Source of the DNA: a virus
DNA: 36,273 nucleotides
Strand: one strand, 5' to 3'
IMG/VR virus record: IMGVR_UViG_3300042304_000106
Span: 1-36,273 of that record
Every line of letters begins with the position of its first letter. Position 1 is the first letter of the stretch. Shown one piece after another: positions 4,281-36,273 of the stretch. The translations under genes and the position numbers were made by a program. The notes beneath the pieces are model-generated. The model did no database searches, was not told where the DNA came from, and was given only the letters and a program-made list of their open reading frames with translations.

Positions 4281-5474
4281 ATGTCTGATATCGCAGAAAT
4301 TAAATCCCTAGCGGAAACCCAAGGCACATTGCTGAGTACCACTCGTGAACTGAAATCATGGATGGAAAAAGCAAATGGTGAAATCGCGGCTTCCAAAAAT
4401 GTTGAAAATGAAACCAAATCCGCAATGGAAAAACTCAGCACTAAAGCCGCTGAGTTGACCGAGAAGTGTTTGGAACTTGAGCGCAAGATGTCTGACTCTG
4501 CTAAAGAAGGTCAGAAGCAATCTGAGTCTCTTGGTGAGCAATTGGTTAAGTCCGAAGCCTTCCAAGCAATGTCTCAAGGTCGTAGCAAGTTTGCTCGTAT
4601 TGAAACCAAGACAGCAATCGTGAACGCTACTGGTCAGAACCAACCTTTGGTCGCTGACTTCCGTGTCCCAGGAATTATCACAAATCCGAATCGTGTTTTG
4701 ACTATTCGTGATGTGTTGCCTGTCGGTCGTACATCCTCTAACTTGGTGCAATACACCAAAGAGAATGTGTTTACCAACAATGCAAACGCACAATACTCAA
4801 GCCCTGCGCGTGAGAATGTGACAAAGCCTGAGTCAGCAATTACATTCACATTGGCTAACGCTCCTGTGGTGACATTGGCTCACTTCATCCCTGTCTCTCG
4901 TCAGGTGTTGGATGATGCTCCTCAATTGCAATCTTATGTCAATGGTCGTTTGACTTATGGCTTGAAGTTGGAAGAGGAAGATCAGTTGTTGAATGGCCTT
5001 GGTACAAGCGGCACAATCGCGGGTATCACTGCATCAGGTAATCACACAGCGTATAGCCGTCGTATTACTGGTGACACAAAGTTGGATACATTGCGTCGTG
5101 CGATTACTCAGGCTCAATTGTCTGACTATATGCCTGACACAATTGTGATCAACCCTGCTGATTGGGAAACCATTGAAATCGCTAAGACCACTTATGGTGA
5201 ATACATCTTTGGCGGTGAGAATGGTCCTGTGAATGCATTGCAACCTTTGATTTGGGGCAAGCGCGTTATCGCTACAAACAGCATGACAGCGGGTAAATTC
5301 TTGGTTGGCGGCTTCACTATGGGCGCGCAAATCTGGGATCGCATGGATGCGGCTGTTCAAATCTCCTATGAAGATGGCGACAACTTCAAGAAGAACATGG
5401 CCACATTGTTAGCAGAAGAGCGTTTGGCTTTGACAGTCTATCGCCCATCCGCTTTCATTTACGGCAACCTGTAA
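4281..5474 (+). CDS. Major capsid protein (HK97 fold)
   Basis: Forms the icosahedral shell. It has 397 residues, with a coiled-coil delta (scaffold) domain at about 1-105, then a mature domain closely similar in order to HK97 gp5: GIITNPNRVLTIRDVLPVGRTSS, DDAPQLQSYVNGRL, LLNGLGTSG, and VGGFTMGAQIWDRMDA. By alignment from memory, the HK97 crosslink residues Lys169, Asn356 and Glu363 correspond to Lys182, Asn372 and Glu379, all present. Protease cleavage is expected near residue 110. AAAGGAAATACC before the ATG is a good ribosome site, and a terminator follows at 5483. Chainmail crosslinking is inferred. Confidence 0.97.
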   Translation: MSDIAEIKSLAETQGTLLSTTRELKSWMEKANGEIAASKNVENETKSAMEKLSTKAAELTEKCLELERKMSDSAKEGQKQSESLGEQLVKSEAFQAMSQGRSKFARIETKTAIVNATGQNQPLVADFRVPGIITNPNRVLTIRDVLPVGRTSSNLVQYTKENVFTNNANAQYSSPARENVTKPESAITFTLANAPVVTLAHFIPVSRQVLDDAPQLQSYVNGRLTYGLKLEEEDQLLNGLGTSGTIAGITASGNHTAYSRRITGDTKLDTLRRAITQAQLSDYMPDTIVINPADWETIEIAKTTYGEYIFGGENGPVNALQPLIWGKRVIATNSMTAGKFLVGGFTMGAQIWDRMDAAVQISYEDGDNFKKNMATLLAEERLALTVYRPSAFIYGNL

Positions 5475-5482
5475 TTGAGCAG

Positions 5483-5511
5483 ACCCCCATGCTTTAGGGT
5501 GTGGGGGTTTT
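5483..5511 (+). terminator. Rho-independent terminator after capsid gene
   Basis: ACCCCCATGC pairs with GTGTGGGGGT (10 bp including wobbles) around the loop TTTAGG, followed by TTTT. It sits 9 nt after the capsid stop, so it would limit read-through and raise the relative level of capsid mRNA. Confidence 0.85.
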
Positions 5512-5545
5512 GTAATTTATAAAACTAAACAGAAATGACCCCGCG

Positions 5546-6028
5546 ATGGAATTAGTTGAAATAATTGCCCTGACTCACTTTGAAGATTCACGCATCGGTA
5601 GCGTGAGCAAAAAGATGAGGCTAAAAGTTCCGTCAGTAGTTGCTGACGATCTTCAATCAATTGGTGTGATTGAAATAGTAAACCCCCCATTGGCGACCGC
5701 CCGATCAGTTCTTACGACCGCACCGCAGGTCGTTGGGCGGGGCGTGTCGCCTGTATTATTGCAAGCGGACCAAGTCTCACCGAGGAAGATTGCAACCTTG
5801 TTGGAGACCAAGGATGGGCGACCATCGCAGTCAATGATAGCTACCGCAGAGCAACATTCGCAGACTGCTTATATGCTTGCGATGACCAATGGTGGCGAGT
5901 CCACTATGAGCGAGTCAAGTCAGAATACGAAGGCGAATGTTGGACTCAAGACGAGGGGGCGGCCAAGAGGTACAAAATCAATCGCATTGGGTCTGAATAC
6001 AAAGAAGGACTCGGAACTAATGGCGTAA
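5546..6028 (+). CDS. Small head-region protein; C-terminal part dubious
   Basis: The first 48 or so residues (MELVEIIALTHFEDSR...SIGVIEIVNPP) resemble the short proteins often found just after phage capsid genes, with a small beta-rich fold ending near 'LQSIGVIEIV'. After that this frame runs to 6028 only because it overlaps an apparently real gene read one frame back (5674-6327). The later residues, including an AT-hook-like RGRPRG, look like out-of-frame shadow. A six-C run at 5683-5688 lies exactly where the meaningful reading changes frame. No clear ribosome site precedes the ATG. The N-terminal part is likely real; the 160-residue length probably is not functional as such. Confidence 0.5.
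   Translation: MELVEIIALTHFEDSRIGSVSKKMRLKVPSVVADDLQSIGVIEIVNPPLATARSVLTTAPQVVGRGVSPVLLQADQVSPRKIATLLETKDGRPSQSMIATAEQHSQTAYMLAMTNGGESTMSESSQNTKANVGLKTRGRPRGTKSIALGLNTKKDSELMA
5683..5689 (+). promoter_or_regulatory. Candidate -1 slippery heptamer CCCCCCA
   Basis: In the frame of the ORF at 5546 this reads C CCC CCA, the X XXY YYZ pattern for -1 frameshifting. Slipping here joins the first 48 residues to the downstream MptE-like frame, which has no normal start codon. A homopolymer indel in the assembly would look the same. Confidence 0.4.
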
Positions 6029-6327
6029 TCCATCAGGGCGGTAATAGCGGTTATCAGGCAATCAATCTTGCGTACTTATGGGGCGCAAGGACAATTGTTC
6101 TGCTAGGATTAGACTGTACGCTATCACCCAAAGGTGAGGCACATTGGTTTGGTCAGCATGGTGAAGGATTGACAAACCATCAACCATTTGAAATGTGGCA
6201 AGCTAAGTTCCCGCAACTTGCAGTTGATTTGCAAGCAGAAGGTGTCCGAGTAATTAACGCAAGCAGACAGACAGCCCTGACTTGCTTTGAGCGAATGACG
6301 CTTGAGGAAGCAATTAAAGTATGTTGA
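5689..6327 (+). CDS. DUF115/MptE-like protein lacking a normal start
   Basis: This frame is open from 5674 to the TGA at 6325-6327 and encodes a coherent protein: GRWAGRVACIIASGPSLTEE, then GWATIAVNDSYRRA, FADCLYACDDQWW, GGNSGYQAINLAYLWGARTI and VLLGLDC. These blocks are typical of the DUF115/6-hydroxymethylpterin diphosphokinase MptE-like family found in phages, whose members handle nucleotide- or sugar-type substrates. No in-frame ATG, GTG or TTG occurs before 6169, well inside the conserved region. Expression would need an ATT start at 5689 (no ribosome site seen), a -1 slip at 5683-5689, or correction of an indel. Its end overlaps the glycosyltransferase start by 7 nt. The family call is moderately sure; the substrate is unknown. 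Confidence 0.7.
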   Translation: MGDRPISSYDRTAGRWAGRVACIIASGPSLTEEDCNLVGDQGWATIAVNDSYRRATFADCLYACDDQWWRVHYERVKSEYEGECWTQDEGAAKRYKINRIGSEYKEGLGTNGVIHQGGNSGYQAINLAYLWGARTIVLLGLDCTLSPKGEAHWFGQHGEGLTNHQPFEMWQAKFPQLAVDLQAEGVRVINASRQTALTCFERMTLEEAIKVC

Positions 6328-7040
6328 CCCTATTGACTGCAACTGGTGCGAGACCGAAGGCTTGGGCTATCTGCGAATTGTGGATGGCAAGGCAGACGTA
6401 CAGAGGAGATGTTCGTTGGATTATTGTTGATGATGGTGAGGTTGCACAGCCAATCACATTCAGCAAAAAGAAATGGACACTAGAAGTAATTAGGCCAACT
6501 CCTTACTGGCAAGATGGAATGAATACGCAAGCGCGTAATCTTCGATCGGGTATGGATGTTGTTGGCGCAGATGAGAGAGTTGTCTTTATTGAGGATGACG
6601 ATTGGTATGCGGCTGATTGGCTTGAAACAGTTGATAAGAAATTTGAGAAGGCTGAGTTGATTGGCGAAGCTAATGCTCGCTATTACAACTTGCCTCAGAA
6701 ATCTTACAGACCAATGTTCAACACATTGCACAGTAGTCTCTGCTCATCTGCTATTCGTGGTCAGGCATTAGACACATTCAGATCAGTATGCAGGGCGCAA
6801 ATTAAGTTCATTGATGTATTGCTATGGCAAGCGCATGGAAACAATCATTTGTTTAGTGGTGATCGTGTTCTTGGCATCAAGGGCATGGAAGGTCGCGGTG
6901 GCATTGGAGTTGGTCACGCAAAAGAATTCCGTGGAACTAAGGATGTTGGCGGTAAAATTTTGAAATCGTGGATTGGTGATGATGCTTTGGTTTATAAGCC
7001 AGAGGAAAAATTAAATGACGCAATTAGTTCGGAAAATTAA
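6321..7040 (+). CDS. Glycosyltransferase family 2-like protein
   Basis: Predicted GT-A fold transferase of 239 residues. It begins MLTLLTATGARPKAWAICE, has an early WIIVDDG strand, and a metal-binding DxD-type motif in FIEDDDWYAADWLE. The donor and acceptor cannot be read from sequence. It follows the MptE-like frame with a 7-nt overlap and overlaps the connector gene by 26 nt, so it is embedded in the virion structural operon. That position suggests modification of a virion protein, but DNA or host surface sugars are also possible. Confidence 0.78.
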   Translation: MLTLLTATGARPKAWAICELWMARQTYRGDVRWIIVDDGEVAQPITFSKKKWTLEVIRPTPYWQDGMNTQARNLRSGMDVVGADERVVFIEDDDWYAADWLETVDKKFEKAELIGEANARYYNLPQKSYRPMFNTLHSSLCSSAIRGQALDTFRSVCRAQIKFIDVLLWQAHGNNHLFSGDRVLGIKGMEGRGGIGVGHAKEFRGTKDVGGKILKSWIGDDALVYKPEEKLNDAISSEN

Positions 7041-31888: not shown

Positions 31889-32494
31889 ATGACAAACAAA
31901 TTGGCAATCAAATATAAGGCAACTGAACAGTTGATTCCCTATGCACTCAACAGCCGCACACACTCTGAATCGCAGATTGCACAATTAGCCGCAAGTATCC
32001 GTGAGTTCGGGTTCACGAATCCTGTCCTATTGGATGGAGAGAATGGCATCTTGGCAGGGCATGGGCGGGTAATGGCGGCAAGATTGTTGAAGTTGGAAAG
32101 CGTTCCGACTATTGAAATTTCACATCTGACAGCAACTCAGAAAAAGGCCTATGTCATTGCTGACAACAAATTGGCTCTGAATGCAGGGTGGGACATGGAT
32201 ATCCTTGGCCTTGAAATTGAAGAATTGAAAAATTGTGACTTTGAAATTGAATTGCTCGGTTTTGATGAATCAGAACTGGCTAAAAGCGCAATTGATTATT
32301 CTGTCCTTGATGACGAGGATGTTGATGACAAGATTCAAGACATGGCTGATGGTGTCAGAAAGGCAATACAAATTGAATTTGAGCCTGAACACTATTCAGA
32401 GGCGCAAGAACTGGTCAAATATTGGCGTGGTCAGAACGCTTATGTCGGGTACATGATCTTAGATTTCCTGCGGAAACAAAAAGATAAAGTTTGA
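31889..32494 (+). CDS. ParB/sulfiredoxin-like domain protein
   Basis: 201 residues. A ParB N-terminal-type domain: PYALNSRTHSESQIAQLAAS, IREFGFTNPVLLDGENGILAGHGR (phosphate-binding GHGR, residues 57-60), then IADNKLALNAGWDMDIL and LLGFDESEL. This full pattern normally precedes a DNA methyltransferase domain in phage ParB-methyltransferase fusions. Here the enzyme part is absent and the end is AQELVKYWRGQNAYVGYMIL. AGAAGG precedes the ATG. As the first gene of the cassette it may be its DNA-binding or CTP/ATP-dependent part. Confidence 0.86.
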   Translation: MTNKLAIKYKATEQLIPYALNSRTHSESQIAQLAASIREFGFTNPVLLDGENGILAGHGRVMAARLLKLESVPTIEISHLTATQKKAYVIADNKLALNAGWDMDILGLEIEELKNCDFEIELLGFDESELAKSAIDYSVLDDEDVDDKIQDMADGVRKAIQIEFEPEHYSEAQELVKYWRGQNAYVGYMILDFLRKQKDKV

Positions 32495-32495
32495 A

Positions 32496-33017
32496 ATGAA
32501 AATCTTTGTAACCATTGGCGGCTCTGGCACAAGGATGAAGGAAATCAGTCCTGTTGATAAACAATTTATTTATTACAGGGACAAACGCATCATTGAGCAT
32601 ATCTTTAAGATTTTCCCTTATGCAAATCTGCTAGGTAACGCAAAAACAAACAGCAGGAAAGATACGCTGACAGAAATAGCGCATGAGCAAGATTGCTTGA
32701 TTGTTGACTGTGACATCATCCCGTTTGGTTTGCCAGAATTGAATTTTGATGGCGACACACTATTTTTCTTCAATAGCGAGAAGCCTAAATACGGCTCAAT
32801 TCTGATTGAGGATTCAAGATTGATTGCTGTGAATGAAAAAGACAACATTTCAAAAAATAAATGTAGTGGAATTTATTTCGTCAAATCCATGTCTAATTTA
32901 TTAGACAACATGAGAGATGTGAACAGTTTGGCATCAGGAATGATTGGCGCGAAAGTTATCCAAGAAAACACATTTATCAAATTAGGTGATGTGGAAGATT
33001 ATTACGAGGCACTATGA
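32496..33017 (+). CDS. Sugar-type nucleotidyltransferase
   Basis: 173 residues. The N-terminal IFVTIGGSGTRMKEISPVDK has the GxGxR...K nucleotide-binding signature of sugar-1-phosphate NTP transferases; a metal-type DCD lies at 71-73 (LIVDCDIIPF), and SGIYFVKS matches the later conserved strand. It is shorter than usual (about 240), so a compact variant. Overlaps the HAD-kinase gene by 4 nt, implying that they act on one substrate. Donor synthesis for the nearby glycosyltransferase is inferred. AT-rich compared with structural genes. Confidence 0.82.
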   Translation: MKIFVTIGGSGTRMKEISPVDKQFIYYRDKRIIEHIFKIFPYANLLGNAKTNSRKDTLTEIAHEQDCLIVDCDIIPFGLPELNFDGDTLFFFNSEKPKYGSILIEDSRLIAVNEKDNISKNKCSGIYFVKSMSNLLDNMRDVNSLASGMIGAKVIQENTFIKLGDVEDYYEAL

Positions 33018-33952
33018 TCGTTGTTGTTGATTTTGATGGGACATTGGCAATTGGAAATACGCGCATCATGGACAGGATGCCTAATCTTGCGTTGATAAAA
33101 CGCTTGCAGGATTTGAAAAGCACAATCAATCCAACAATCAAAATTGTGACAGCGCGTGGCTCAAGATTCGGTTTGTCAGAGAGTCAAAAGATTGAAAAAT
33201 ATCATAAAGATATTCAAACTTGGCTCAATTTGCACAATGTTCCGCATGATTGCATTTCTTTCAACAAAGAATATGGCGCGATCTACATTGATGACATGAC
33301 TGTAAGCCAAGACGCTGATTTTACAAGCCTATTGAGTCCTTTCACAAAAAATAAGCTAATCTTCACAGACAGCACAGTAATCAAGAAAACAAAAAACGCA
33401 GAATTGGAATACGCTTGGTATCAGGCGGCAGATAGCATCGTGCAGACACCGAGAATATTATTCTGCAACGATGAGATGATCATTCTTGAAAGAGTGAAAG
33501 AACACAAGAAGCCAACAGCGCATGAAATTATTGATTTGATTGAGTCGTACAAGAATAAATCAATTAAAAATTATTCTTTTGACAGCTACAAACGGAATTT
33601 GCCAAGAATTGAATACGCGACAGCCAAAGTGCAGACCATCATTGATGGGTTAGAAGAACATGAATCATCTTTCTTTCATGGCGATCTTTCAACAACTAAT
33701 ATTCTTGTCCAAGACAATAAATTATTTTGCATCGATCCGAACTACAAAGGTATTTTTGGAAGCTATCTGACGGATGCAGGGAAGGCTTTTTTCAGTTTGC
33801 TTGCATACGAGCAAAGTTATTCACAGGCAAAAATAATTTCAGATAAGTATGGCCAAGATGTAATCAGATATGCCATTGCAGAAGGATTGCGGGTTTGCAA
33901 ATACAACAGCAAATACATTTCTGTTGTTAACAACATGACGGATTTGATATGA
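33014..33952 (+). CDS. HAD phosphatase fused to APH/choline-kinase-fold kinase
   Basis: 312 residues, two domains. Residues 1-105: HAD fold with VVVDFDGTL (Asp6, Asp8), TARGSR (Thr46), and IYIDDM (Asp93, Asp94). Residues of about 115-312: kinase-like with LIFTDSTVIKKTKNAELEYA, ERVKE, HGDLSTTNILV (His222, Asp224, Asn229) and CIDPNYKG (Asp241), the catalytic and metal motifs of the aminoglycoside phosphotransferase/choline kinase fold. Such fusions appear in polysaccharide loci. With the nucleotidyltransferase, it suggests phosphorylation, dephosphorylation and activation of a small sugar or alcohol. Substrate unknown. Strongly AT-rich. Confidence 0.85.
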   Translation: MIVVVDFDGTLAIGNTRIMDRMPNLALIKRLQDLKSTINPTIKIVTARGSRFGLSESQKIEKYHKDIQTWLNLHNVPHDCISFNKEYGAIYIDDMTVSQDADFTSLLSPFTKNKLIFTDSTVIKKTKNAELEYAWYQAADSIVQTPRILFCNDEMIILERVKEHKKPTAHEIIDLIESYKNKSIKNYSFDSYKRNLPRIEYATAKVQTIIDGLEEHESSFFHGDLSTTNILVQDNKLFCIDPNYKGIFGSYLTDAGKAFFSLLAYEQSYSQAKIISDKYGQDVIRYAIAEGLRVCKYNSKYISVVNNMTDLI

Positions 33953-34677
33953 AGATTGCAATACCAACTCATCGGAGATCAGATTCAATAAACAAACTTA
34001 CTTTGAGTTTGCTATCTGATTTCGATAAGAAAGATATTTATTTATTCATAAGCGATGAGCAAGATATGGCTCTTTATAAGCAAATTTGCCCAGAGTACAA
34101 CCTTGTTATGTGCCAAACAGATAACGCAACTGATAAATTTAATTACATTCAAAATTATTTCGATGTCGGAGTTTTTGTAATTGTCATTGAAGATGACATC
34201 AAGCAGATACAGTCTTTGATGACAAAGGATTTGAAGAAGCTGTTTGGATTCATAACAAATTATTGCAATAATAAACAAATCAATTCTTTTGGTGTCTATC
34301 CAAGCTCAAACAAATTTTTTATGAGCAAGACAATCGATATAGGTGCAACATACATTGTTGCTAATCTTTTTGGCTTCAAATCAACCAAAGACCATAGGGT
34401 TCTGTGCCAATTGAAAACAAAGACGGACTATGAGAGAAGCGTAAAGTTTTATAAGCACATGGGAAATATTGCGCGTTTCAATTTCATATCTTGCCTGACA
34501 AACAACTACACCAATAAAGGCGGTATGCAAGAGATCGCAGATAGAGCAACCCTTGAAAGACAAGCCTCTCTGATGCTTTGTAAGTTATATCCCGATATTT
34601 TTTCTATCAATGAGAATAGAAAATCTAAATACACAGAGATTCAAATGGCCAAGAATGTTGTGAAAGAACAGTTATGA
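33949..34677 (+). CDS. TET-associated-type glycosyltransferase
   Basis: 242 residues of GT-A type: MKIAIPTHRRSDSINKLTLS, LLSDFDKKDIYLFISDEQDM, and a DxD-type metal motif in VIVIEDDIKQIQSL (Glu81-Asp83). The IPTHRR start and FISDEQDMALYK strand match the TET-associated glycosyltransferase (TAGT) group, known from phages next to TET/JBP dioxygenases. It would transfer a sugar to an oxidised base in DNA. ATGA overlaps on both sides tie it to the kinase and dioxygenase. Sub-family call is from memory of motif layout. Confidence 0.75.
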   Translation: MKIAIPTHRRSDSINKLTLSLLSDFDKKDIYLFISDEQDMALYKQICPEYNLVMCQTDNATDKFNYIQNYFDVGVFVIVIEDDIKQIQSLMTKDLKKLFGFITNYCNNKQINSFGVYPSSNKFFMSKTIDIGATYIVANLFGFKSTKDHRVLCQLKTKTDYERSVKFYKHMGNIARFNFISCLTNNYTNKGGMQEIADRATLERQASLMLCKLYPDIFSINENRKSKYTEIQMAKNVVKEQL

Positions 34678-35471
34678 ACTATGTGGAACTCAAACAGGTC
34701 AAGCACAGCATAAAGATTGGCGATGTATGCGGTGATATTGAGCCAAATGTCACAGAGGACACAATATTTCTGTCAGACGATAAGATTGTTGGCTTCTACA
34801 TCAAAGAGATGACAGGGCGTGTCAAACAGCTTGCTGATGTTGCCAATGCTGAATTCCTATCTGAGAGAGTGCCAAAGTCTTTCATGGACAGGAAGAAGCC
34901 AATGGGTCAAGATGAGAATGGCAAGAACAAGTACCAGATCATTCGGCAATACAGCACAATACTTGGATCAATAGCACCCAAGCCACATATGAAGAGGGTG
35001 TATCCTGCGATCTCTAGCGTACATCAGGTTAAGTCAGCGCAGACATTTGTCAAAGCCATGCTCCTGCTATGCAAAGAATCTGAGAAGCTCATGCAAGAGA
35101 TCGCTCCTGAGCTTTATGAAACGCAGAAAAGAATCATCACAGAACAAGTCCCGCCTGAATTCCGCTTTGGAGAGTTGTTCACATCAAGTATCAGCAACTT
35201 CAATATCTCCGCACCTTTCCACAGAGATGCCGCTAATCTAGAAGGATGCGTCAATGTGATTATTGCCAAGAAGAAGAACGCTAGAGGCGGCAATACAACT
35301 GTTCCTGACTATGGGGCAACTGTTGACAGCAGGGACAATTCAATGTTGGTGTATCCTGCATGGCGTAATGTGCATGGAGTAACACCAATCCATCCGATAA
35401 TAGAAGGTGGATACAGGAACTCTTTGGTCTTCTATCCACTCAAAGCATTTGCCAACCATTGGAAACAATAG
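34674..35471 (+). CDS. TET/JBP-like 2-oxoglutarate/Fe(II) dioxygenase
   Basis: 265 residues. The C-terminal half has the double-stranded beta-helix signature: NFNISAPFHRDAANLEG gives the iron-binding HxD (His183, Asp185) with Asn188; RGGNTTVPDYGATVDSRDNS; NVHGVTPIHP gives the distal His234; YRNSLVFYPL gives Arg248 for 2-oxoglutarate. H-x-D..N and H...R.S.V.Y are typical of TET/JBP DNA-base hydroxylases. The N-terminal 160 residues are helical and unlike anything I can name, perhaps DNA-binding. It ends the cassette with the glycosyltransferase. Base identity unknown. Confidence 0.82.
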   Translation: MNYVELKQVKHSIKIGDVCGDIEPNVTEDTIFLSDDKIVGFYIKEMTGRVKQLADVANAEFLSERVPKSFMDRKKPMGQDENGKNKYQIIRQYSTILGSIAPKPHMKRVYPAISSVHQVKSAQTFVKAMLLLCKESEKLMQEIAPELYETQKRIITEQVPPEFRFGELFTSSISNFNISAPFHRDAANLEGCVNVIIAKKKNARGGNTTVPDYGATVDSRDNSMLVYPAWRNVHGVTPIHPIIEGGYRNSLVFYPLKAFANHWKQ

Positions 35472-35478
35472 GCTAAAG

Positions 35479-35850
35479 ATGGATTATGTTGACTTCTTTG
35501 CCCTACAAGAGGGTGAGCACAAGATAGATGCAAGACTAAAGAATTGGTCTGTGTATGTCCGACCTCGCAGGGGCTATGGGTCAGTACATCCAATGTTCCG
35601 TTGGTATCGTCCGACAGAAGTATGGAATGGCAATCCGAACAGCTTTTCCCTTGATTTGCCTGATGCCGAGCTACTTGAGGGGGCAATGCGTCATCTGTCC
35701 AATGTGAATAGAATCGCAATCAAATGGTTCTATGTTGAGAACACATCGCCAACTAAAGTATGCAAAATATTAGATATCAACCTACATACATTAAAAAATT
35801 ATGTAAGTAGTGGTAGAAAACAGTTGCAAAGTTATGTGGAAGTGATCTAG
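35479..35850 (+). CDS. Sigma-like HTH protein, candidate late regulator
   Basis: 123 residues from ATG 35479; the open frame from 35407 overlaps the dioxygenase gene and is rejected. A basic middle (SVYVRPRRGYGSVHPMFRWY) precedes ELLEGAMRHLSNVNRIAIKW and TKVCKILDINLHTLKNYVSS, a helix-turn-helix of sigma region 4 type, like phage antiterminator-Q/RinA-type proteins. It lies just before the packaging genes, the usual place of a late activator. Activation or antitermination is inference. Confidence 0.7.
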   Translation: MDYVDFFALQEGEHKIDARLKNWSVYVRPRRGYGSVHPMFRWYRPTEVWNGNPNSFSLDLPDAELLEGAMRHLSNVNRIAIKWFYVENTSPTKVCKILDINLHTLKNYVSSGRKQLQSYVEVI

Positions 35851-36216: not shown

Positions 36217-36273
36217 ATGACTCCCTACCCAAAACCGTTCCTGAACCACTTCTTTCAAAAACTCCCGAAAAAA
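36217..36273 (+). CDS. Start of frame crossing the circular junction
   Basis: ATG 36217, 9 nt after the HNH stop, opens a frame MTPYPKPFLNHFFQKLPKKK that continues through the junction (base 36245 to base 1) and ends at 47-49, overlapping the TTG start of the small terminase. One base less in the eight-A run (23-30) would make it the N-terminus of the small terminase. It is either that or a 25-residue leader peptide. Confidence 0.45.
   Translation, partial: MTPYPKPFLNHFFQKLPKK
36246..36273. repeat. Terminal direct repeat, right copy
   Basis: Identical to bases 1-28. It marks overlap of a circular assembly. Confidence 0.9.

Follow-up and report, generated by a model that had tools for sequence, protein, structure and literature searches.

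In kinetoplastids, base J is formed by JBP1/2, which hydroxylate thymine, and a glucosyltransferase that uses cellular UDP-glucose. Phage clusters of a TET dioxygenase with a C5-methyltransferase (C5-MTase) and a TET-associated-type glycosyltransferase (TAGT) have reportedly been described by Iyer and colleagues in 2013 and by Burke and colleagues in 2021, and the classical members of thymidine hypermodification make hydroxymethyluracil via a dUMP hydroxymethylase. Here, these systems are compared with a cluster of five genes in IMG/VR virus record IMGVR_UViG_3300042304_000106, the whole 36,273 bases of which are called the window:

31889-32494, forward strand: ParB-like protein, 201 amino acids (phrog_15396, expectation value (E) 2.5e-54)
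32496-33017, forward strand: short sugar-1-phosphate nucleotidyltransferase-like protein (NTP), 173 amino acids (RmlA fold; phrog_3980, E 2.2e-8)
33014-33952, forward strand: HADK, a HAD phosphatase (residues ~1-110) fused to an APH/choline-kinase-like kinase (~115-312), 312 amino acids (motifs, 1xpj, Foldseek)
33949-34677, forward strand: TAGT-type glycosyltransferase with EDD at residues 81-83, 242 amino acids (PF20691 above cut-off)
34674-35471, forward strand: TET/JBP-family 2-oxoglutarate (2OG)/Fe(II) dioxygenase, 265 amino acids (PF12851 above cut-off, invariant residues)

The five genes probably form a phage DNA-hypermodification cassette, in which thymine would be converted to hydroxymethyluracil and then glycosylated, in a base-J-like manner, with a sugar made by the phage. 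The reactions, the modified base and its sugar, as well as the part played by the ParB-like protein and the protection from nucleases, are inferred as follows. The ParB-like protein would bring or license the system on phage DNA, and the TET/JBP enzyme, recognisable by family and presumed in its substrate, would act on a pyrimidine, likeliest thymine, that is already part of the DNA and oxidise its 5-methyl group to 5-hydroxymethyl. The kinase half of HADK would put a phosphate on C1 of a host sugar or sugar-phosphate, the HAD half would strip the distal phosphate, if present, and NTP would join the sugar-1-phosphate to a nucleotide, as in the heptose and the presumed RB69 arabinose pathways. 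The TAGT would transfer this sugar, probably not glucose and at a guess a pentose, onto the hydroxymethyl group, and the product, a base-J-like glycosylated hydroxymethyluracil, would shield the DNA from host nucleases. If true, phages would combine a thymine hydroxylase with dedicated donor synthesis and carry out base-J chemistry outside kinetoplastids, which would open a supply of new transferases and of new DNA bearing sugar modifications. It would also account for a cassette that recurs in numerous uncultured phages and in cultured actinophages and cyanophages. In the cultured relatives, the claim can be put to a direct test.

The proposed pathway resembles base J formation in its order of thymine hydroxylation and glycosylation, if the substrate here is thymine, whereas the kinetoplastid system (JBP1/2 and a glucosyltransferase) draws on cellular UDP-glucose and has no donor genes of its own. 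The phage clusters of TET, C5-MTase and TAGT share TET and TAGT with the window, which differs by the absence of a C5-MTase and the presence of its own donor genes and a ParB partner. In thymidine hypermodification (ADDT, 5-hydroxymethyluracil (5-hmU) kinase; M6, ViI, Tonitrus) the tailoring group is an amino acid, while a sugar is predicted here. Actinophage Tonitrus shares ParB and TET with the window; they are accompanied by aGPT-Pplase2/ADDT and a 5-hmU DNA kinase, and according to its authors the cassette may serve thymidine hypermodification (PMC11955845; statements cited by PMC number refer to the available portions of those papers).

Phage RB69, which has arabinosylated DNA, also clusters a HAD protein, an NTP-transferase and a kinase-like domain. 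Unlike the window, it carries an annotated arabinose-5-phosphate isomerase (ORF055c) and no TET, fuses the NTP-transferase to the kinase (ORF053_052c) with HAD apart (ORF051c) where the window fuses HAD to the kinase, and makes its base at the nucleotide level, as 5-hydroxy-dCMP (PMC13390438). Thomas et al. proposed ORF055c and ORF53_52c for the RB69 arabinose donor (PMC6024577), and an isomerase, an NTP-transferase and a sugar kinase of the RB69 type are named for activated arabinose (PMC6024577, PMC13390438); in the Thanatos paper a homologue of ORF053_052c is discussed both as a possible donor-maker and as a candidate glycosyltransferase (PMC12838424).

In a first-pass annotation of the window, no precedent had been known for this set with dedicated donor-synthesis enzymes. 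The set does have precedents, as cultured Synechococcus phage S-CBWM1 (MG450654) has the same activities together, its neighbouring genes gp8-gp12 encoding TET, TAGT, HAD, NTP-transferase and an APH-like kinase, and as the donor trio resembles the RB69-type presumed arabinose genes. Matches between S-CBWM1 and the window families were obtained for TAGT (E 1e-18), HAD (4e-8) and kinase (5e-13), while its HAD and kinase are separate genes, the gene order is different and the TET is only 28% identical to that of the window over 164 columns; no ParB was seen upstream in the S-CBWM1 cassette. The TET-like stretch lies at residues ~247-406 of gp8 (L048, MG450654, 3729-5165; L numbers denote loci), a protein annotated as 'putative SNF2 DNA repair protein', and used as a query against viral contigs it returned only its own record. 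For a TET with such a donor set, no description was found in the literature searched; key phage TET and hypermodification papers outside that search may contain one.

Active sites of the five proteins

The first-pass annotation had placed five mostly overlapping genes at the above positions and named a ParB-like protein, an NTP-transferase, a HAD-kinase, a TAGT and a TET/JBP dioxygenase. The gene calls are confirmed, with a 1-bp gap between ParB and NTP and 4-bp overlaps at the last three junctions, and the identities are borne out by profiles, PHROGs and Foldseek. Compared with locus L005 (80-85% nucleotide identity), the ratio of nonsynonymous to synonymous substitution (dN/dS) of the five genes, from ParB to TET, is ~0.04, 0.08, 0.12, 0.04 and 0.06 (range 0.036-0.12), and nucleotide change falls mostly at third codon positions. 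Owing to this low dN/dS and third-position-dominated change, the five open reading frames (ORFs) are real genes under purifying selection, not chance ORFs.

The profile searches suggested at first pass placed PF12851 and PF20691 above their cut-offs and the other domains below threshold in Pfam. The dioxygenase belongs to the Tet_JBP family (PF12851, 40.3 bits, cut-off 34.9) and not to an oxygenase family with a non-DNA substrate, and its family profile matches TET2 with E 1.5e-7. H183, D185, H234 and R248, i.e. the HxD...H iron triad and the 2OG-binding Arg, had been picked out correctly and are invariant in 19 aligned TETs. The label 'queuine tRNA-ribosyltransferase' of phrog_6059 was rejected as a misnomer, as the same proteins match Tet_JBP; it mislabels the TET/JBP proteins of this family and of several RefSeq phage records (NC_020847 17129-17914, NC_022061 810-1766, NC_023701 813-1691), by which the dioxygenase is hidden.

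The TAGT scores 30.2 bits with PF20691 (cut-off 27.5), covering only positions 1-95 of the 205 of the profile. Over most of its length it is similar to S-CBWM1 gp9 (BLAST E 1e-18), which itself reaches 40.6 bits over positions 1-205. For the ParB-like protein, the ParB_N score is sub-threshold (22 bits, cut-off 26.3) and the PHROGs match is firm. NTP is likewise sub-threshold for NTP_transf_3 (14.8, cut-off 27), but carries the signature GGSGTRMKxxSPxxK with D71/D73, and its active-site residues are invariant in 8 relatives. Structure prediction, also suggested at first pass, was run for NTP and HADK. The NTP model (pLDDT 79.7, pTM 0.80) has an RmlA-like fold (best Foldseek E 3.5e-9), and nearly all of its 50 listed Foldseek matches are RmlA-type sugar nucleotidyltransferases.

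In HADK, the HAD half matches EcbF-BcbF TIGR01689 (E 6.7e-10, under the cut-off of that profile) and 1xpj (E 1e-12), an entry titled 'hypothetical protein' that is presumably a HAD protein. The kinase half is sub-threshold for RIO1/APH (20.9/13.2, cut-offs 22/23.2) and resembles choline kinase, LicA and APH when the model (pLDDT 80.3, pTM 0.63) is compared by Foldseek. The HAD motifs D6xD8xT10, T46, K85 and D93D94 and the kinase motifs HGD(222-224), N229 and D241 are invariant in 10 HADK relatives. A polynucleotide-kinase-like repair role, raised by a match of the HAD half to phrog_415 (E 0.0037), was rejected on account of the choline-kinase-like, not P-loop, fold of the kinase half. Judged by their motifs, all five proteins are catalytically intact. 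Among viral models, the top structural match of HADK is BFVD A0A1V0SE67, a nucleotidyltransferase protein of 635 residues from the giant virus Indivirus ILV1, which perhaps has the NTP-HAD-kinase make-up of the fused protein of L151 described below.

The donor genes

The combination of kinase, HAD phosphatase and nucleotidyltransferase follows the logic of bacterial ADP/GDP-heptose activation. In all 16 contigs found with an NTP profile, NTP and HADK are neighbours (in one of them, L152/L169, each of the two genes was taken from its own stretch of the contig). TAGT follows them in 13 of the 16, and TET as well in 12 of those 13, the remaining contig (L155) ending there. At L059 the order is ParB-NTP-HADK-TAGT-TET, with identities to the window of 48/53/59% for NTP/HADK/TAGT, 30% for TET and 33% for ParB (local BLAST segments). 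By this comparison, NTP-HADK-TAGT is a module that swaps as a unit and accompanies TETs of two distant lineages. A tree of 76 hand-picked TETs requires four or more changes of the module label on branches with good support; for six labels of the middle genes, 22 changes were counted compared to 40.9 in shuffles, with long branches, above all S-CBWM1, unsure and an unidentified middle gene of L077 labelled GTB by hand. The guanine-plus-cytosine (GC) content of NTP/HADK/TAGT in the window is 0.366/0.375/0.339 versus 0.426/0.445 for ParB/TET, and these three genes are likewise GC-poorer in L005 and L150. The first-pass ideas of dedicated donor synthesis and of an order of methyl oxidation, donor synthesis and glycosylation are thereby supported, as far as sequences can indicate, by the homologies, the neighbouring genes and the swapping of modules.

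At L151, a single 621-residue protein replaces NTP and HADK, with NTP_transferase at residues 12-210 (E 1.8e-11), HAD at 248-348 and kinase at 366-613. Its kinase is 29% identical to RB69 ORF052c over 220 columns (pairwise E 7e-18) and matches other Escherichia and Shigella phages with E 1e-7; going by these similarities, it is a link between the window and RB69 gene sets. Both sets also match the same PHROGs, HAD matching phrog_1238 (window E 2.3e-8, RB69 ORF051c E 1.9e-42) and NTP matching phrog_3980 (E as listed above for the window, 1.1e-6 for RB69).

Several results weigh against the proposed donor pathway. The window-family profiles match RB69 weakly (E 0.0028 for HAD, 0.0019 for kinase, 1.2 for NTP) and the L151 protein poorly in its kinase (E 2.4, best domain 0.066), with 1.6e-4 for its NTP part. 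A sugar-phosphate isomerase (SIS, PF01380) was found in 0 of 4 records searched, the window included, and the GC dip of the middle genes is weak in L059 and L154. S-CBWM1 gp11, an NTP-transferase of the same broad Pfam family, gives no sequence match to the NTP of the window, so that the two share the activity and not the gene. In Agathobaculum phage AB434P2 the HAD-kinase fusion lies next to a different nucleotidyltransferase (CTP_transf_like); as the AB434P2 and S-CBWM1 nucleotidyltransferases both differ from that of the window, the activity is kept and the gene not. Finally, three of the 16 contigs (L174-L176) carry NTP-HADK apart from TET.

These three contigs bear on the possibility that the genes glycosylate a target other than DNA, on the virion or host surface, with TET incidental. 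In L174, a 175-kb phage contig, the pair (5001-6481) lies within a glycosyltransferase-like cluster and may feed another glycan, and in the other two it lies beside methyltransferase-like genes. No TET, ParB or TAGT match was found in the 10.5 kb around the three pairs, and none to Tet_JBP in the whole records, in a search whose control genomes were without the Tet_JBP family. Since NTP-HADK is also found away from TET, it looks like a general maker of activated sugar, borrowed here for DNA. A target other than DNA is nonetheless very improbable for the window, given the translational overlap with TET, the order of TAGT and TET behind most NTP-HADK pairs and the fact that ParB-TAGT-TET without the donor pair is the commonest form of the cassette (42 of 133 loci).

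According to a further alternative, NTP and kinase would make a CDP-alcohol of the choline or ethanolamine type, following LicA-LicC logic, or the kinase would decorate the sugar after transfer, so that the final group would be a phospho-alcohol or a phosphosugar. The top Foldseek matches of the kinase do include choline/ethanolamine kinase and LicA, and NTP_transf_3 is said to include LicC-like enzymes, but the predominance of RmlA-type sugar nucleotidyltransferases among the NTP matches, the tie of the RB69 relatives to an arabinose product, the membership of TAGT in a glycosyltransferase family and the single NTP-HAD-kinase chain of L151, which fits one sugar-activation path, all render this improbable. 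For the donor sugar of the favoured pathway, neither the HADK alignment nor the trifunctional L151 protein had a relative in genome contigs (594 and 20 pattern matches, 0 confirmed), and bacterial neighbourhoods therefore do not name it; the best of 34 plasmid matches adjoins WavE polysaccharide genes, which is consistent with a sugar and names none.

The oxidised base

In a search of 137 records (mostly fragments; the L060 record was left out), 135, the window included, gave no C5-MTase (PF00145) above cut-off, and one more record holds a sub-threshold fragment. As many of the records are fragments, the 26 of at least 25 kb weigh most, and 25 of these are without PF00145 above cut-off, the exception being G025. 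In both carriers (G025:28214-28906 and G026:1423-1950, from the L025 and L026 records), ParB and TET have nothing between them and the MTase lies some kb from the cassette. A thymidylate-synthase-type hydroxymethylase (PF00303) was found in none of the 26 longer records, window included, so no hydroxymethylase acting at the nucleotide level is seen in them. In the alignment with TET2, FYQH of TET2 stands opposite FYPL of the window; its His, which we take to be the cytosine contact, is replaced by Leu in all but two of the 132 TET rows that could be read (130 rows), these two having Arg and Ile. Genes for ADDT and P-loop kinase-like proteins, both known from thymidine hypermodification, are present in sister cassettes. 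The near-absence of C5-MTase and the Leu opposite the TET2 His favour thymine, which is likely to be the oxidised base.

The same machinery could instead oxidise 5-methylcytosine provided by a host methyltransferase, leading to glycosylated hydroxymethylcytosine, and the following points speak for it and against thymine. The phage TETs assayed by Burke and colleagues in 2021 are said to act on 5-methylcytosine, and we know of no assayed phage TETs other than those active on this base. Host methyltransferases could supply the substrate, and two of the 137 records have a C5-MTase of their own, besides the sub-threshold fragment. AB434P2 and Enterococcus phage 9183 each have a synthase-like gene next to HAD, and both synthases look dCMP-type by one residue, an Asp presumably of that type. 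The T6 TAGT acts on glucosyl-hydroxymethylcytosine and the RB69 sugar is attached to cytosine (PMC13390438, PMC13216743); as both serve cytosine modification, neither the T6 TAGT nor the RB69 donor genes are an argument for thymine. We nevertheless consider 5-methylcytosine rather unlikely, in view of the scarcity of PF00145, the thymidine pathways to which the ADDT/kinase sister cassettes belong and the Leu in place of the presumed base-contact His. The synthase of AB434P2, annotated as deoxyuridylate hydroxymethyltransferase, was dropped as support for thymine on account of its PYD motif, the Asp of which we assume to be of the dCMP type.

ParB-TET cassettes in other phages and the remaining window

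Loci were collected from a TET scan (43 viral loci), a wider TET profile (best 80 of 488 matches) and TAGT (13), and a few cultured phages were added. The count comprises 133 loci with a TET row, with near-copies included and duplicate contigs left out; having been found via TET or TAGT similarity, they are not independent. L061, L063 and L155 stand outside it, as they have no TET row (ORF choice or contig end), and the NTP row of L005 was lost though the gene is present. Of the 133 loci, 114 have a ParB-like gene upstream of TET at a distance of up to 4.5 kb. Among the 19 loci without a scored ParB, 15 have their TET within 2.5 kb of where the stretch begins, and no fewer than four (L038-L040 and, by annotation, Tonitrus) do have a ParB that was missed by the script.

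Besides the commonest form given above, the genes between ParB and TET are kinase-GATase-ADDT in 11 loci, nothing in 9, NTP-HADK-TAGT in 9 (10 including L005), a glycosyltransferase-like family unnamed by Pfam in 6, ADDT-DAO-kinase in 4 and FkbM in 3, with the remaining forms making up 7 loci together. HADK-TAGT was scored in two, L005 with its lost NTP row and L151 with its fused protein. In 21 loci the middle genes were scored as 'unknown'; eight of these were inspected, and seven resemble TAGT when judged by eye only. When representative middle genes were searched with Pfam, ADDT, FkbM, GATase_6 and TAGT were above cut-off and DAO below. ParB and TET are also adjacent or one gene apart, near terminase genes, in the cultured cyanophage MED4-184 and in the cultured actinophages Tonitrus, KayaCho, CloverMinnie and Acadian. 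Acadian, a Mycobacterium phage of M. smegmatis mc2 155, has the arrangement ParB-TET-TAGT. The ParB-TET pair is common in phages and its middle genes are swappable; the ParB-like protein is probably a DNA-targeting or recruiting factor. Fusions of ParB domains to methyltransferases in phages are reported in a survey of this fold, and no mention of TET cassettes was found in the available portion of that paper (PMC12704722).

More tentatively, with a chance that we put close to even but not quite there, this phage would produce a genuine base J analogue, by JBP-type thymine oxidation in finished DNA and with its own non-glucose, perhaps pentose, donor, within a widespread ParB-X-TET platform that swaps sugar, amino acid, methyl or nothing on a single core for thymine oxidation and often lies beside terminase genes.

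Three variants of the cassette differ in their middle or flanking genes. Prochlorococcus phage MED4-184 (L047, NC_020847 3641-5765) has a ParB-like protein (213 amino acids, annotated 'DNA methylase', 47% to the ParB of the window), an FkbM methyltransferase-like protein and TET, and its cassette possibly yields a methylated hydroxymethyl base. In L020-L025, ~600 bp from ParB to TET (e.g. L020 7320-7934) hold no picked forward ORF of at least 60 amino acids, these being phages without a tailoring gene. In L041 (6621-7779), TET stands behind a tandem pair of ParB-like genes and ahead of a glycosyltransferase-like gene.

The window begins and ends with the same sequence:

1-28 and 36246-36273, strand not applicable: 28-bp exact direct repeat, two occurrences in the window, at its ends only

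Because this repeat is identical at both ends and found nowhere else in the window, the contig probably closes on itself and represents the genome in full. Among the matches listed for the large terminase (497-2029), the best are the terminases of Cronobacter phage ENT39118 and HK022, at ~61% identity, and YqaJ, Erf (recombination) and NinB genes are also found. In the ORF list, the TET gene shares its 3' end with an overlapping ORF (35407-35850) that has a sigma-70 region-4-like helix-turn-helix; in relatives this ORF starts later, near the TET end.

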